64,000 nucleotides of DNA from Anaspis maculata (Eukaryota > Arthropoda > Insecta > Coleoptera > Scraptiidae). The translations under genes and the position numbers were made by a program. The stretch covers positions 33,745,042 through 33,809,041 of the forward strand of contig OX421966.1 of the NCBI GenBank assembly GCA_949128115.1. The letters run 5' to 3'. The notes under the pieces were generated by a model. The model was given only the letters and a program-made list of their open reading frames with translations. It searched no databases and was not told the DNA's origin. The first letter of the stretch is position 1. Every line of letters starts with the position of its first letter. Of this stretch, positions 2,225 through 45,677 are shown in pieces.

Positions 2225-5200
2225 CTTTCTAATGGGTGTGGACAACAACTGTGCAAAATGACTTGCTTGCTTGTATCATCAAATGCCACTTTTTTTTTGC
2301 GTACCGCAGGCACCTAATTCTAGTTGAAGTTTTAAAGTTGAGGTGGGTGAGGGCAAAAGGGGGGTAATAAGAAATATTCATAATATTTTCCTCAACAAAA
2401 AAGATAATAATTTTGTTCAATTTGATGTAAGTACCACAAAGTAATGCCCGTTCACGTTGCAAATTCAGCACAAGAAATTTTTTAATCAAAAATAAAGTGA
2501 AAAGCTGGAAAGGTATACGGCTGATGGGCCCTGATAGATTTGCGCCAAAACTTTGCAGGTCCCATCAGCCGTAGCCGTAGCCCTCTAACTTATCACTTTG
2601 TTTTTGATTCCAAAAGTTCTAGTGCTGAATTTGCAACGTGAAGAACAGCATATTATAGATGTTTCTACTTGAAATTGTAAAATAGAGGTCGGTGGGGGCA
2701 AAAGGGGAAAATTGAAAATTTTTAGAATATTTTTCTCAGTACAATTCTCTTCTGATGTATCACAAGGTAGGTGGTTTCATTTGAAATTTTAAAGTAAAAG
2801 GGTGGGTAGGGACCAAAGGGGATGATTGATAATTTTTATATTTTTCTTGGAAAAAGAATTCAATCCTCTCTAATCTGGTGAAACAAAAAGTACGTGTCAG
2901 TTATCATTTTTAGTTGGAACTTAAAAGAGTGGATAGAGCAAAAGGGGGGTTGATTAAAAAAAATTATAATATTTTTCTCACAAAGAAAATTTGATGTTTT
3001 CAATTTGATTTATCACAAAGTAAATTATCCTACATGAGTTTTTAAAGTAAGGGTGGGTGAAGACGAGAAGGGGTGATTAATATTTTTTATATTCTTCTCA
3101 GAAAGAGAATTCAATTCTCTTCAATCGGATGAACCGAGAAGTACGTGGTTTCATTTGAAAGCTAAGGGTGTTTGAATATTTTTTTCACAAAGAGAATTTG
3201 ATGTTTTCAATTTGATGTACCACAAAGTAGATGAGCCTACATGAATTTTTTCAAGTGGGTGTGGGGGGGGGGGGACAACAGGATGTGATAAATAAGTTTT
3301 ATATTTTTTTCAGAAAGAATTCAATTCTCTTCAATCTGGTGAACCATGCCAAAGTACGTGGTTCCATTTGAAATTTGGAAATCAAGGGTGGGTGGGGCAA
3401 AAGAGGGGTTAATAGAAAAAAAATGTTTTTCTCACAAAGAGAATATGATTTTTTCTGATTGATGTATCACAAAGTTCATTATTCTACATGAAATATTGAA
3501 GTGGGTGGGTGGGGACGAAAGAGAGTGATTATAAATTCTTATATTTTCATCAGAAAAAGAACTCAATCCTCTTCAATCTAGTGAACCGAAAGTACGTGGT
3601 TCCATTTGAAATTTAGAAGTTGAGTGTGGGTGGGCCAAAAAGGGGGTTGATCAAAAAAATTCATGATATTTTTCCCACAAATAAAATTTGATGTCTTCAA
3701 TTTGATGTATCACGAAGTAGATTACTCTACATGAAATTTTAAATTAAGGGTGGGTGGGGACAGAAGGGGGTTATTACTAATTTTTATAATTTTTTCAGAA
3801 AGAGAGTTCAACCTGGGGAACCAAAAAGCACGTGATACCATTTGATATTTAGAATGTAAGGGTAGATGGGGCAAAAGGGGGGTTGATCAAAAAAATTTAT
3901 AATATTTTTCTCATAAAGAGAATTTGATGTTTTCAATTTGCAATTTTCAGTTTTTTTCAATATACATGAAGTTTTTTAAGTAGGGGTGGGTGGGGACGAC
4001 AGGGGGTGATTGATAATTTTTATATTTTTCTCAGAAAGAGAATTCAAGACTCTTTAATCTGGTTAATCAGAAGTACGTGGTGCCATTTGAAATTTGGAAG
4101 TTAAGGGTGGGTGGGACAAAAGGGGGGTTGAACAAAAAAAATTATAATATATTTCTCACAAAGAGAATTTGATGTCTTCAATTTGATGTATCACGAAATA
4201 GATTATTCTACATGAAATTTTAAATTAGGGGGGGGTGGGGGCAAAAGGGGGTTATTAATAATTTTTATAATTTTCTCAGAAAGAGAGTTCAACCTGGGGA
4301 ACCAAAAAGCACGTGATACCATTTGATATTTTGAATGTAAGGGTAGATGGGGCAAAAGGGGGGTTGATCAAAAAAATTTATAATATTTTTCTCACAAGGA
4401 GAATTTGATGTTTTCAATTTGATGTACCACAAAGTAGTTCAATATACATGAAGTTTTTTAAGTAGGGGTGGGTGGGGACGACAGGGGGTGATTTATAATT
4501 TTTATATTTTTCTCAGAAAGGGAATTCAAGACTTTTCAATCGGGTTAATCAGAAGTACGTGGTGCCATTTCAAATTTGGAAGTTAAGAGTGGGTGGGACA
4601 AAAGGGGGGTTGAACAAAAAAAATTATAATATTTTTCTCACAAAGAGAATTTGATGTATTTAATTTGATGTATCACGAAATAGATTATTCTACATGAAAT
4701 TTTAAATCAGGGGGGCAAAAGGGGGTTATTACAAATTTTTATAATTTTCTCAGAAAGAGTGTTCAACCTGGGGAACCAAAAAGCACGTGATACCATTTGA
4801 TATTTTGAATGTAAGGGTAGATGGGGCAAAAGGGGGGTTGATCAAAAAAATTTATAATATTTTTCTCACAAAGAGAATTTGATGTTTTCAATTTGATGTA
4901 CCACAAAGTAGATTAATATACATGAAATTTTATAAGTAGGGGTAGGGTGGGGACAACAGGGGGTGATTGATGATTTTTATATTTTTCTCAGAAAGAGAAT
5001 TCAAGACTCTTCAATCTGGTTAATCAGAAGTACGTGGTGCCATTTGAAATTTGGAACTTAAGGGTGGGTGGGGAGGGGGGTTGAACAAAAAAAAATTATA
5101 ATATTTTTCTCACAAAGAGAATTTGATGTCTTCAATTTGACGTACTCAAAGCAGGTGATTATATTTGTCATTTTGAGAGGGGGTGAGTGGAGTCGAAGGG

Positions 5201-7658: not shown

Positions 7659-7935
7659 TTAGATTTTAAAGGTGAGGAGGGGGAAGCGAAGGGGTGAAAT
7701 TGGATGGCATTGTCGACCTATTATTCTCATTCGCCAAAAAAAATCGATTAGAGTATTTTCAACCACCTTCCAGTCAGCCGTACTCTCAACCCATTTCCGG
7801 TAGGGAAGGAATTTTTCTACATCAAACGATTTGATCAAAGTTGTTAGAATAGTAGGATAATGATCCGAACCTAAAGGATCGAAATCCACTTCCCAGGTTG
7901 TTTTTGTGATCAGCGACCTGGAAACAAAGCAACAC
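7659..7935 (-). pseudogene. LINE AP-endonuclease C-terminal fragment
   Basis: The minus strand reads ITKTTWEVDFDPLGSDHYP then TILTT. The (G)SDHYP motif is the conserved C-terminal catalytic signature of the APE-type endonuclease of non-LTR retrotransposons, where the D and H act in DNA nicking. The frame runs about 75 codons past it, then enters satellite. No full domain is present. Same strand and order as the RT (6.4-7.1 kb) and ORF1-like pieces. Confidence 0.8.
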
Positions 7936-8126
7936 GTGCTGGAATACGCTAGAAAAAAAATTGACGGTAAAAAATTGAAACAGTGAATCTCTTCAGAATA
8001 TTTCGCTCCTGTCTTTCTTAACGTCGATACGGATACTCTGAGGAAGAATCTTGCCCAAAGTTCTAGATTAGACCTAGATAGACTACCTGTCTGTTCAGAT
8101 GCAATCTTCTTTATGTTCTAATTATT

Positions 8127-8957: not shown

Positions 8958-8965
8958 GTACTGGG

Positions 8966-9221
8966 AAGGGTGAGCCGAAAAATATTTTTTTTTTAAATCG
9001 AATGCGGCCTGCGCTGAAAAGTTGTAACTAGGGTTCTTGAAAACTCTCAACCAAAAAAAAAAAATATTAAAAAATATCCAGCCGGGCCCCCGGGGGTCCA
9101 AACTATTTTTCTTCTATTTCCCAAAAATTAACTCGGGCTAGTTATGAACAGAATGTTTATTAGTTTTTGAACAAGAATATAAAAAGTTATCAAAAAATTT
9201 TAATTTTTAGCCGGGCCCCGC
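8966..9221. repeat. Left terminal inverted repeat of the 2.15-kb element
   Basis: About 256 bp, alignable by eye along nearly its whole length to the reverse complement of 10847-11111, with small indels in A/T runs. The innermost 14 bp TTTAGCCGGGCCCC is perfect. Confidence 0.85.
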
Positions 9222-9242
9222 TGCTATATAAAGAAAAATTTT

Positions 9243-10565
9243 GATGAAAATGACAGCTCATTAGCGTGTAGAAGACATACACTCCACTTGAGTTGTTTGT
9301 TCAATTTGGTTTCTAGCAGACGAATTACACCACCTTTCCCACTGGTTTTAACGTTAGTTCCAACACATCCTATAACCATAAGTTTCGGTAAGTCCACACC
9401 TTGACTTTCTATAAAGCCTATAATTCCTTCAGTGATATCTGTCGCTCGTGATTGCGAGAAAGCTACATGCCCGAAAAAGAAACTTCCCGGTTCTTCTATT
9501 GGAGCGATGTGTTCTTCAGTTTTGATTATTCGGCGACCATTCTCCTAAAACATTGTTTGATCTTTTCTTCCATCAAAATATAGGCCTCTAATCAAAACGT
9601 TTTCATTCATCTTAGCTTCTTGAAGCTGACGTCTGTTTTTGCTTTCTCTTCGAATCTAATTTTTGTTCACAACCATTGCTGGATCAACTTTTGAAATCAA
9701 GTTCAGGTCTTCTAAAGCAGCATTTGCAATTTTCACTACAGAACGATTAGACACACCAGTTAAATCTGCAACTTTTGCAGTTTGTGTCAGTGAAAGACTC
9801 ATTTGAGTTTTACGTTTTTGTTGGTTTAGTTTTGATGCCTTTTCATTTTCAAGTGGGCAAAACCATATGAAATTTGTATCGTTTGCTACTGTAGCCGTTG
9901 AAGTATCAACATCACTTTCAGTACTTTCGCTCTCATCAAGTGTGATGTCTTTACTGGGAATGTTGTCATCACAGAGTCGACCGCATGGAACCGGCTTGCG
10001 GCTCTTCAAAAGTCACGTTCATATTATCAACAAAGTTCCGTTGAAAGTCCTTAACTTCTCTGTCAGTTTTCTTCTTTAGTTCAACCGACACTTTCCTATC
10101 TAGATTACCAATCGCCATTTTTCTTTCACCTCTTTGATCTTCTGTGATTCTCCATTCTATTCCCGATATCTTCTTTGTCTTCTCACAGTTGCACGATAGT
10201 TTATTCAAACATTTGCTGGAACAGATATCAAACAATCGCTGTGCTTCATGTTTAAATGCCTTGAATTTTCTCGCTAGGACGGTGGTCTTTCTACTTTTTA
10301 TAGCCTTAATAGCAGCTTGATATTTGTTGTTGTAGTGCACGATCTTGTCGATTATTCTTTCGCGGGATACAATTGGAAGAGAGCCCTGTTCCAGATATCC
10401 TCCAATTTTTGAGCAACTACACTAACAACTGCTCTTGCTTCTGATGGCTGTTTGCTGCCTTCCTCTTTTAGTTTGAAGCGAAAACTTTGGAAACATCATA
10501 TCACATCCTCGTATGTTGGCAGCACATTAGTTTTTTTCGGGTGAAATGTCTTTTTCAGTGTTCCG
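9243..10565 (-). pseudogene. Decayed helix-turn-helix protein of an uncharacterised, mobile-like family
   Basis: Reading down from 10565, an N-terminal LPTYEDVI segment and an EEGSKQPSEARAVVS segment precede a Cys cluster (CSSKCLNKLSCNC, about 10230-10190) and WRITEDQRGERKMAIG. Next come an acidic linker, a helix-turn-helix candidate (KVADLTGVSNRSVVKIAN, about 9770-9715), GLYFDGRKDQT, and GCVGTNV..GGVIRLLE ending in CLLHANEL. Defects are stops near 10527, 9657 and 9552, frame changes near 10385 and 10000, and an abrupt end at the left TIR. From memory this order recalls a repetitive family in hemipteran genomes that usually continues past this point. The HTH plus an acidic-residue-bearing C-terminal part fits a DNA-binding recombinase or transposase, but that function is inference. 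It is the only gene inside the element. Confidence 0.6.
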
Positions 10566-10846
10566 AACCAGTGGCGTAACTAGAAGTGTCCAATGGGGGG
10601 GGTCACGACTGAAAAATATGCGAATATGCAAACAAAACGAATAATAAAGCGTCGCATTAAAAAAATTTCAGGGAATTCGATGGCCAATGGGGGGGGGGTT
10701 GACCCCGAAACCCCAAGTTGGCTTTTCACGCACGATCACATACGGTCATACGGACGCAAGTACATACTTACAAAAAGTAAATGATTTTACTGCTCACTGA
10801 TGAGTGTTGAAGTGCTCAAATGCTGCGTTAAAATAATTTTATATTA

Positions 10847-11111
10847 AAGGGGCCCGGCTAAACGTCCGAATATATTGAGGAAAAAAATTATACCTACCAA
10901 AATTACAGTATACAAACATTTGCAAACTAGCCCCAGTTGATTTTTGTAATTTTTTTTTTTCAAAATTTGATGACCCCGGAGCTTGGCTAGATATTTTTCA
11001 AAAAATTTCATATTTCGTGTGGAATATTACGGAACCAAGTCACAACTTTCTCACGCTAGCCGCAGTTGAATTTCCAAAAAAAATGTTTCTGGTCATTTTC
11101 GGCCTACCCTA
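10847..11111. repeat. Right terminal inverted repeat of the 2.15-kb element
   Basis: Inverse partner of 8966-9221. It ends at 11111, directly before the second GTACTGGG. Between it and the pseudogene lies a G-run region (10568-10800) starting AGTGGCGTAACTAG, a string common at the ends of insect DNA elements and possibly another small insertion. Confidence 0.8.
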
Positions 11112-11119
11112 GTACTGGG

Positions 11120-11345
11120 GTATCCCCCTGCACCGTAAACTGGTTTTCCTTCTCTGATGACATTGAAAATCAAAGCTTGTCCTGCGTTTTATACTTTTCC
11201 GCCAAGTTGGAGTCGTCGTTCCAGGAAAGTCTTCCTCCTTCGATGGCCTTCTTGGCCCATCAAAGGTTTGTGCTGTTTCTTGGCTTTCACCTCTCTCCAT
11301 CGACCTTTTCGGCATCATGAGTGTCCCTACCAGGGGCCTCTTCAC
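11120..11345 (-). pseudogene. LINE ORF1-like, upstream part
   Basis: A minus-strand open frame of 78 codons, charged and rich in R, K, E and T, with no recognised domain. It abuts the DNA transposon. Deleting the transposon and one 8-bp repeat joins an open frame here to the one entering 8957. Its LINE identity comes only from context with the endonuclease and RT fragments further down. Confidence 0.35.
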
Positions 11346-11399
11346 GTGACCTCCGCCAGTATAGCTCTCAGGATAATTGCAGTTACTTGAGCCCCTCCA

Positions 11400-13427
11400 C
11401 CAACTACAAGGTCTTACAGCAGTACAGCACCAGGAGGGATGGTTCTGTAGAGCTAGATAGACGTAGGTACAGTAGGTGCGATTGAAGTATCCACCACGGC
11501 GTATTGCCTTTTAAGTTCCATAACAATATGGCACCATGAAAACTGGAACACTGGCAAAGGTTGAATTTACGCAGAAAAATATTGCCTTGCGGACATTTCG
11601 ATCAGAATCTTACCTACTTCACAAATTGTTTTTCGTCCACTGTTGACCCAGCAACAATGTCTCGGTAGTGGGTACTGTGTTGATCCTCATTCTGCTCTAA
11701 CAGAAGCGACGAATCCACTCACGGAGTTCTCCCGGAACACACAGATATCTGGTGAAGAAATGGCTGGTCGCAATTTCACGATTCATAGTTCCTGAGAGCT
11801 TGGCAATTTGCTTCAGTAATCAGTAATGTTCTCTCTTCCAAGTCGTTGGGATCATCGGGCATTGACGATGAGGGTCGAGAATTTAGGATTGATTCGATTT
11901 GCACTAGGGCTGGTATAAAACTCTTCAAAATGTTAGTGAAGCATTATTTTGACATGGTTTCAGGTGATCTGTGACGCTTTTCACTTCAACCTCTCAAAAG
12001 CCCTCGAAAATACAACGGGTATGGAATGCCAATCGGCACTCTGGGTCACTTCTAGCGACAGACCTTCGAAAGGAAGCCATGCATAAGTGCCTCTCCCGAC
12101 AATAAAGTCACCAGTTTCAAATGAACGGCCTTCGTAACAAAACAAATAAACAAACTTGGTAACTAATCAACGCTGGCTGTGGCGGGCTGAAATTTATTTA
12201 ACAATTAATTCAAAATACCGAGATTCTGAATTTCAATCGAGTACCAGAGATCTTGGCCTCACAGGTCTTTCTACACTGCGCACTCTTGTGCTATAATACA
12301 CTTAGCCAAGCTTGGCATTCAACCGTGTGCCTCCACAGGGCTCAAACAACACGTCTGCATAATACATGCAGTGTGAAAGAATGCAAATAGGCAGGTTGTG
12401 ACTTATTAGTTCCATCAAACGAGCATTTATCTGTATATCGTCGCACCTATAGCCCCACAGGTCAGCTCGCGAAGCGCCCATCGCAGGTTTGTCGTGCCAT
12501 TATCGCTTCTCCGTAACAGCCACTTCAAGACCCGCGCCGAGACGACCGTTCCATACCAGGCCGTTTTATTATTTATACAGATAAATCAATTTTTCAAAGT
12601 TCTTGTTAGCGTAAGAGTCGTTGTTTGGCGATGGATTTGCCCAGATTATACAATATTGCTTGGCGCGCTCGTTTGCTCCATATCGAAATGCACATAAACG
12701 GTTATGGAGGTGCATGCACACGTTTTAATGAACACATCGGAATTTTCGTTGTTATTATGAAATGTTGCGATTTATAACGGGATAAAACAAGCTTTCTGTA
12801 TGCCAGAGCTACATAGATTGTTGTATGACGGGGAGAGAGAGCAGAGCTTTCGCGCGCGAGCCATGGCTGATGATAATAATTTAATTACTATTATTGTATA
12901 TGGCGGATCAACGGTGGTTTTTGTCAGACTGTTCTGCATTTAATTAAGCACCTCATGATGGTAAATGCAGTTGTTGGAGCTTTACGCCGCCGTTCTGGAA
13001 CCGCGATAAAAGCTGAGCATACATTGCATCGATCAGGAACTTAATAGCACGTGACTAACTCAGTTATTAGTTGTTAACTACCTTCTGGTTGGCTTCAAGG
13101 TGCTTCCTGAATGTGAAGTATCTTCCTCCAATCACGGACTTTTTCACGGCTAGTTGTACTCGGATTCAAATGCTGTTGGTCGTTGGCCGTTGGCCGTTGC
13201 CCGTTGCTCAAGGTCTAACAGTTCTAACATATTATTTGAGCTTATGACATGACTTCCGACGCGAAACCCTTTCAATGAGATGTTTCGGGTGCTAGTGAAA
13301 AAATGTGTCGATAGAATCAGGTTTTTGAGAACACTTGATGTTTCAACAACTTGACAATGTTTTTAGCGTTAACCATCCTTGAAGAAAGGAAATGAGAGAA
13401 CAACGGGAACTTATTAAATTAATCAAC
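11400..13427. other. Non-coding interval, nothing recognised
   Basis: About 2 kb of unique-looking sequence. No ORF carries a recognisable domain. The short frame at 12494-12697 has no support. Confidence 0.4.
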
Positions 13428-14291: not shown

Positions 14292-15775
14292 TCGAAAGAA
14301 GCTATCACTTCAGATGTGGTACTGATTCATTATAATTCAGATCTACCTTTGAAAGTAAGTTGCGACGCAAGTTCATATGAAGTAGCGGGAGTATTATCGC
14401 ACATTTTACCTAATGGAAATGACAGACCAATTGGTTTCGCCTCAAGAAAACTAAGTAAATGTGAAATGGCTGATTCCACTGTAGACAAAGAAGCATTATC
14501 AATTTTTTTTTCCGTCAAAATTTCTTATCACTATCTTATGGGACGCAAATTTCTTTTAACAACAGATCACAAACCTTAAATTTATTTATTCGGAGACAAG
14601 AAAGGTATTCCTGTGATGGCGGCTGGCGGATTACAGCGCTGGTCTGTTTTCTTATCCAAGTTTGATTTTACCATCAAATATCTAAAAGGTACGTTGAATG
14701 GAAATGCAGATTGTTTGTCACGCTTACCTTCGTCTAAGTCTGGCGAAGTGGAGGAATTGAATTATACTTATGTGGATTTCATTTATGATAACCATGACCT
14801 ACCACTTACGGCAGCAGATATTCAGGATGAAACAAAAAAGGATGGAGATCCATCCAAGATTTCATCTGAAATTAAGGAGGGATGGCATAACAAATTGGAG
14901 GGGGATTCGTTTAAGTCTTTCATTAGTCGAAAAAATGAACTGAATGTAGAAAATGATATAATAATGTGGGGTTACAGAGTTTTAATACCGGAAAATTGCA
15001 GAAAGTTGTTGTTAGAGGAATTACATATGGCGCACCCGGGAATAGTAAAAATGAAAAGTGAAGCGCGATCCTATTTTTGGTGGCCAAAGTTAGATATGGA
15101 TTTTAAAAAGTTGGTTGAGGCTTGTGAGGCTTGTAGCAAGGCAAGGCCCAGTCCGCCTAGAGCATCATTGATCGAATATGAAAAACCTAGTTACGTTTTT
15201 GAAAGAGTTCATGTTGATTTTTTTGGTCCTGTTGGAAATACGATGTTTTTAGTTTCAATAGATGCATTCAGCAAATGGGTGGAAATCCATGGAATCAAAC
15301 CTGTTACGCCTGCAAGTACCATTGATATTTTGAGGAAAATTTTCTCCTGTTTTGGTTTACCCAAGCAAATTGTGACAGATAATGGTTCTCAATTCACTTC
15401 AGAGGAATTTTTAGTTTTTTGTAGAAGAAACGGGATGGAATTAAGTTTAACACCTCCATATCATCCGGCTAGTAATGGAGCTGCGGAGAATGCAGTAAAA
15501 AGTGTCAAAATAGCTTTGAAGAAATCTTTGGAAGATCCACAAAACGGTTCTAGCTCGATTTCTTATATTCTGTCAAGATATCTTTTGAATTACAGGACAA
15601 TGTTTCACTGCACGACTGGGGTGTTACGCTTCGTTTTGCGATGTTTGACAGAAATACTGAAGTGAGGCTAGACCTGCTCAAGCCAGAGAACTTGGAAGTC
15701 CAAGAAAATAATTTCAACATAATAAAGCCAGAAAGAGATATTCATTTTTCTGTGGGTGAGGAGGTCTCCCGTGAA
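14292..15775 (+). pseudogene. Ty3/gypsy element A pol: RNase H and integrase, broken
   Basis: Starts in RNase H (VSCDASSYEVAGVLSH, ASRKLSKCE, DKEAL, TTDHKP) and continues through the RNase H/integrase linker (LNGNADCLSRLP). The integrase zinc finger follows (HMAHPG..., CEACSKA), then the DDE core: D in HVDFFGP, D in TDNGSQFTSEEF and E in NGAAENAV. The D, D and E residues are all present. Breaks are an in-frame stop at 14577-14579, a frameshift near 15625, and the insertion of a 2.0-kb TIR element at 15766. The C-terminus resumes at 17793. RT and everything upstream are deleted, so this copy cannot be autonomous. Confidence 0.92.
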
Positions 15776-45015: not shown

Positions 45016-45615
45016 TCATTTGGTGCAATTAGGACCATAAAGTATTCCTTTGTCTTCTTTGGTCAATCCAACACAAGCTTCGTGGACATAGATGTTACAT
45101 TTGGCACATCTCCGCATATCTATCATCTCATCAGTCTCACAAACAGAACAGAACCAACTTTCATCAGGCGTGTCTTCTTCGTTCCAGGGACTATCTGAAT
45201 CGTCACAAATCACCCCCGGCTCTGATTCAGACTCGCTTTCACTGCTAGATTGTAGAACTTTTCTTTCAACGGTTTTCTTTGGCTTAGCTTTTTCACTAAG
45301 TTTGTTCTTCATTATTGCTTTTCCTTTGTTATTTCCTCCTTCTTTCGTTTTCTTCTGAGTGGCACTCTGTTTCTTGGTTTTTGATTTGAATTTCGAAGTG
45401 TTGCCTCCAGCTGGTGATGTGGCATCCTCGTCATCAAATTTCTCAGGTGTTTCCGTCAGAATTTGTGTTTTTCCTTGTTTACGGCCCTTGTTTGTTTTCC
45501 TTGGTTCAGCTTTTGGAAACGGCTTGACCATTTCAGGTGTGATTGTTATCAATTCTGACGGATTCAATGAAGATGTGGACGGCAAATGGGATATGACTTT
45601 AAAATGAGTTTTCAA
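45016..45615 (-). CDS. Pogo/Tigger-like transposase C-terminal tail with PHD-like zinc finger (5'-truncated)
   Basis: A 199-codon uninterrupted frame. Residues 26-58 (ITPEMVKPFPKAEPRKTNKG, then RKQGKTQILTETPEK) match the linker that follows the DDE domain in pogo/Tigger and jerky-like transposases of insects. A Lys/Ser/Glu-rich low-complexity region follows, then a Cys/His module, WFCSVC..RRCAKCNIYVHEAC..NC. The spacing CxxC-CxxC-HxxC-C resembles a PHD or degenerate zinc ribbon with the last Cys pair incomplete. The HTH and DDE catalytic domains are missing, and DNA upstream of 45615 is unrelated. The open frame suggests recent decay or possible domestication of the tail. Confidence 0.65.
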   Translation of the reverse strand: MKTHFKVISHLPSTSSLNPSELITITPEMVKPFPKAEPRKTNKGRKQGKTQILTETPEKFDDEDATSPAGGNTSKFKSKTKKQSATQKKTKEGGNNKGKAIMKNKLSEKAKPKKTVERKVLQSSSESESESEPGVICDDSDSPWNEEDTPDESWFCSVCETDEMIDMRRCAKCNIYVHEACVGLTKEDKGILYGPNCTK

Positions 45616-45677
45616 ATAATATTTAACTCATTTTTACTGAATACGCGACTTGGCCCAGCTAGAGTCAGTAAACACCG

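Follow-up and report, generated by a model that had tools for sequence, protein, structure and literature searches.

A decayed, internally deleted transposon in the beetle Anaspis maculata and its probable family of hAT-like transposases

In the hAT superfamily of DNA transposons, terminal inverted repeats (TIRs) are typically 10-25 bp long (PMC3942097), and the termini are summarised in PMC6027215 by the consensus (T/C)A(A/G)NG. The Ac, Buster and Tip groups are portrayed in PMC3942097 with target site duplications (TSDs) of 8 bp and an element length of 2.5-5 kb, which are points of likeness to the elements described here, as are the non-autonomous internal-deletion derivatives (BuT2) of the same account. 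For Hermes, a hAT element from Musca domestica, a TIR of 17 bp, compared to arms of about 255 bp in the subfamily investigated in this study, and the target pattern nTnnnnAn have been reported (PMC10368747), while the pattern given for TcBuster is nnnTAnnn (PMC10512250). Galileo, a member of the P superfamily, offers a second comparison, since its long TIRs, its TSDs of 7 or 8 bp and its DDE transposase (PMC4168063) bear a likeness to the present case. Here we describe an element at positions 8966-11111 of a stretch of 64,000 nucleotides from Anaspis maculata (assembly GCA_949128115.1, contig OX421966.1, positions 33,745,042 to 33,809,041), which is referred to as the window. The element is very likely a dead, internally deleted and non-autonomous cut-and-paste copy, whose gene remnant goes back to a DDE transposase that resembles those of hAT elements and belongs to a family for the most part uncharacterised.

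Gene-bearing copies in the host genome

The window copy by itself cannot tell whether its gene encodes the transposase or was captured by an element that is moved by an unrelated enzyme, two options that a previous sequence-only reading had placed side by side. In a protein search for longer copies in the host assembly (758 Mb in 50 contigs), which gave 65 matches with the best 59 of 455 candidates scored, twelve loci were fetched. At five of these (L048-L052), the gene is found together with both ends (TAGGGTGG) and an exact 8-bp TSD, which reads ATACGCAG in L048, CCGTACAC in L049, TTGAACAC in L050, CTGATTAT in L051 and GTCCCTAA in L052. L047 has retained the left end only, and at the remaining six loci (L053-L058), which all contain incomplete genes, no paired ends with a TSD were detected, with L053 showing a single stray ACCCTA. 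Genes apart from TIRs, which the previous reading had regarded as speaking against a link between gene and element, were thus encountered in part, in the form of the six loci where no pair was seen, as opposed to the five where ends and TSD are in place.

The loci L047-L050 are 99.4-100% identical in their matched stretches. A longer copy with an intact open reading frame (ORF), of the kind that the previous reading had suggested looking for, is found in L049, which contains an uninterrupted frame of 742 residues carrying every catalytic motif and no second ORF above 83 residues, whereas its relatives L047 and L048 are interrupted by one stop each and L050 by a nested insertion of 657 bp. Because gene, termini and TSD coincide at five of the twelve loci, and in light of the near-identical copies and the frame of L049, the family very probably provides the transposase itself, which is in line with its predicted DDE/RNase H fold. 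A captured gene, for which the six loci without detected ends could be invoked, appears most improbable, since four subfamilies (the window family, L047-L050, L051 and L052) combine the gene with 8-bp TSDs and with termini resembling TAGGGTGG, although the sequence behind the first end bases differs among them, since the protein itself is predicted to adopt a DDE fold and since L049 offers no other candidate ORF.

The subfamilies differ in the extent of their inverted repeats. L051 and L052 represent separate decayed subfamilies, whose arms align over 191 columns with 69% identity in L051 and over 260 columns with 79% identity in L052, with the gene match of L052 missing approximately residues 182-330. 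In the L047-L050 subfamily, terminal similarity is confined to a short stretch, and a BLAST comparison of the window ends with those of L049, L051 and L052 revealed no similarity past the shared first bases. Long TIRs are a trait of some subfamilies only. The nested insertion of L050, located at element positions ~1707-2364 and absent from its near-identical sisters, is bounded by TAGGGTAGTGACC inverted repeats and may itself constitute a recent small insertion of the hAT type.

Termini and target sites

The window element is directly flanked by exact 8-bp copies of GTACTGGG at positions 8958-8965 and 11112-11119 (the left and right TSD, neither assigned to a strand), which confirms the boundaries that had been proposed; by composition, the chance that two given places agree exactly over 8 bp is about 2e-5. 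Seven further copies of its subfamily (L010-L016) were fetched in a DNA search of the host assembly, where the best 40 of 534 candidates were scored and copy numbers are thus lower bounds. Their TSDs are exact in L010 (CTGTATAT), L013 (TTGGTGAG) and L014 (CTGCTTAA), whereas the pair GTATTCAT/GTATTCAA of L011 matches at 7 of 8 positions with two extra bases, and L012 and L016 are each devoid of one end. Across the ten insertions from all subfamilies with both ends and matching flanks, the TSD is 8 bp long, with nine exact cases besides L011, and the variable length that had been considered as counterevidence was not observed in these measurable cases (the flanks of L015 do not match).

The duplicated sites follow the pattern nTnnnnAn in eight of the ten insertions, compared to a background of 0.099 (P 3e-7). 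This pattern emerged among the first five insertions (4/5) and was borne out by the next five (4/5). A T is found at position 2 in nine cases, with L049 carrying a C, and an A at position 7 equally in nine. The terminus consensus of hAT elements is fitted by 22 of the 25 recovered ends, the exceptions being the left end of the window copy (AAGGG) and the right ends of L011 (TGGGG) and L015 (TATCA).

The transposase family and its relation to hAT

A search with the read-through protein of the window gene identified 106 related proteins from sources including Brassicogethes, Callosobruchus, Daktulosphaira, Petrolisthes, Helicoverpa, Anthonomus, Biomphalaria, Myxine and Uroleucon. A profile search, with the best 7996 candidates scored, extended the family to at least 451 proteins at E up to 0.01 and added Amyelois, Cacopsylla and Diatraea, so that the named records span beetles, moths, hemipterans, a porcelain crab, a snail and a hagfish. 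None of the matches listed, 120 of them from the profile search, carries a precomputed Pfam domain, and they bear names such as 'uncharacterized' or 'hypothetical', although the one from Petrolisthes is named DUF4371 domain-containing in UniRef. A contig attributed to an Anaerolineae metagenome-assembled genome (L001) likewise encodes a fragment of the family at its end (3657-3896), which probably reflects contamination or a chimeric contig.

In an alignment of 60 members, the residues D335, D405, C434, H437, R529 and W530 (in the numbering of the 757-residue relative P0001) are invariant and E709 is conserved in 58, with P0005 and P0067 showing diverging or early-stopping C-terminal ends. The order of D, D, RW and E is the same as that of D180, D248, R318, W319 and E572 in Hermes. 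The predicted model contains an RNase H DDE core with a helical insertion, for which Hermes is the best match in the PDB, followed at lower Z by a shorter structural match to the bacterial insertion sequence transposase ISCth4. Of the proposed profile and structure checks, the structural part points, as a prediction, to a DDE fold, whereas Pfam remained blank for P0001. Different from Hermes, which comprises 612 residues and to which no sequence match was found, family members contain about 750 residues with an N-terminal Cys-cluster domain, whose model gave no clear PDB match, and a BED finger was not recognised. An uncharacterised bracovirus protein (BFVD O92526, Bracoviriform inaniti) also matched weakly in structure (E 0.009).

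The long TIRs of the window element, the 8-bp TSDs and the DDE core could also be reconciled with a Galileo-like element of the P superfamily. We consider this relationship very improbable, since a C(2)H motif is present in all 60 members where D(2)H is given for P elements, and a THAP domain, described in PMC4168063 together with D(2)H for Galileo, was not found in P0001 and was not among the best 25 of 42 families listed in a Pfam survey (E of 1 or below) of the 60 members, which places it in at most one of them. Moreover, the target pattern is nTnnnnAn rather than GTANTAC, and the best match of the predicted structure is Hermes.

The assignment to hAT is itself opposed by several observations. 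P0001 matched no Pfam family, the hAT-like_RNase-H domain (PF14372) was detected in only two of the 60 members with a best E of 0.028, no BED-type domain was recognised among the best 25 families of the survey, and a sequence-profile search of the PDB did not retrieve Hermes at E up to 10. The whole superposition on Hermes by Foldseek is poor (TM 0.26 by query length, rmsd 15.3). The arms of the window subfamily, at about 255 bp, exceed the TIR length given for hAT in PMC3942097. A full pair of recognisable ends is not present in seven of the twelve gene loci and in three of the eight window-subfamily copies (L012, L015 and L016), in L015 with a damaged right end and unmatched flanks, and the TSD of the window copy agrees with only one of the two positions that define the target rule, with a G at position 7. 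On the other side, the length of the TSD, the target pattern, the TAGGG terminus, the predicted fold and the order of the key residues fit hAT, so that the previous claim of a combination at odds with a standard hAT element could not be upheld. The family appears to be a remote branch of the hAT transposases with recent activity. Its departures, namely the long TIRs found in some subfamilies, the N-terminal Cys-cluster domain and the missing assignment to hAT by Pfam, are at the same time its new aspects. Because neither BED domains nor hATC domains were seen, the latter spoken of for hAT proteins in PMC3942097, without a match in P0001 and confined to at most one member in the survey (PF05699), the family is not assigned here to any of the Ac, Buster and Tip groups.

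A reading that differs in rank rather than mechanism would raise the proteins to an animal-wide DDE superfamily of cut-and-paste transposons that stands beside hAT as its sister group. Its members would bind DNA through an N-terminal Cys-cluster fold of their own, would retain a catalytic core and a target rule resembling those of Hermes and, despite recent transposition, would mostly have gone under the name 'uncharacterized protein'. We regard this as possible yet rather unlikely, in light of the agreement of TSD, target pattern, TAGGG termini, RW pair and catalytic layout with hAT.

Assuming a hAT-like mechanism, the protein of about 750 residues would bind the element ends via its N-terminal Cys-cluster and helix-turn-helix (HTH) regions, and its D-D-E RNase H core would cut at the TAGGG ends. 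In Hermes, the RW and CxxH residues are tied to the flank-hairpin step, which by analogy they probably also serve in this family. Upon insertion, target sites of the form nTnnnnAn would be cut with a stagger of 8 bp. Through its N-terminal domain, a hAT-type transposase might recognise its ends in a new way, and the claim is within reach of a direct test, given the nearly identical copies in the host and the uninterrupted frame in one of them. Annotation of the at least 451 proteins as transposases would correct both gene annotation and repeat masking.

Anatomy and spread of the window copy

The left TIR of the window copy (8966-9219, plus strand) has the terminus AAGGGTGAGCCGAAAA, in place of the TAGGGTGGGCCGAAAA found in the six other host copies that keep this end, and the right TIR (10849-11111, minus strand) carries the terminus TAGGGTAGGCCGAAAATGACC. 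The inverted arms of about 255 bp each, spanning the termini to AGCCGGGCCCC, agree with the approximately 260 bp that had been described, although they are imperfect, with identity in 182 of 313 aligned columns and a best local stretch of 67.9% over 168 columns. With arms that are only about 58-68% alike, a chance association or an assembly artefact might be considered. This appears barely conceivable, since the seven copies elsewhere share these ends, in whole or in part, within different flanks, and six of the seven contain the left and six the right arm, each conserved within its side.

The gene remnant (9248-10573, minus strand) matches residues 12-443 of P0001 in two frames, with several in-frame stops and frame switches. 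It includes the N-terminal Cys cluster (CSSKC...CNC, 10185-10223), where one otherwise invariant Cys is replaced by Ser, a predicted helix pair that probably forms the HTH (approximately 9700-9802, about residues 263-289 of P0001), the first catalytic Asp (D335, in FDGRKD, 9572-9574), the position of the second (D405, 9362-9364), which is occupied by Val within GCVGTN, and CLLHANEL with the C(2)H motif (C434/H437, 9254-9277), all on the minus strand. As noted from the sequence alone, this decayed gene stops after CLLHANEL beside the left TIR (junction at 9226-9254, minus strand). The same junction is found in all eight window-subfamily copies, whose pairwise identity ranges from 86.7% to 98.6%, and the copy is thus, as had been supposed, an internal-deletion derivative. 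A stop within the reading frame and an insertion of 2 bp are common to L011-L014, and their spread therefore came after the breakage of the gene, with the transposase presumably provided from elsewhere. The window lineage would thus have lost the sequence from CLLHANEL onward once and subsequently spread by transposase supplied in trans.

At 10569-10714 (no strand assigned), about 145 bp of another repeat replace about 74 bp of the element, an insert that is absent from the seven other copies; the repeat is abundant, with at least 28 further places at 88-93% identity. L016 contains a nested insertion of about 1.66 kb (555-2213), which reads as two long inverted arms. A LINE frame that was thought to run through the empty site could not be confirmed: upon joining of the flanks, three frames stay open across more than 100 codons (two on the minus and one on the plus strand), so that an open frame proves little at this position, and the adjacent frames at 7659-8117 and 11109-11510 gave no Pfam match with an E of 0.01 or below. 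Elsewhere in the window, an open frame at 45016-45627 (minus strand) ends in a weak PHD/C1-like zinc finger, which is below the Pfam cut-offs, and a fragment of a retroelement-type integrase with Integrase_H2C2 and rve domains (Pfam) is located at 14580-15665 on the plus strand.
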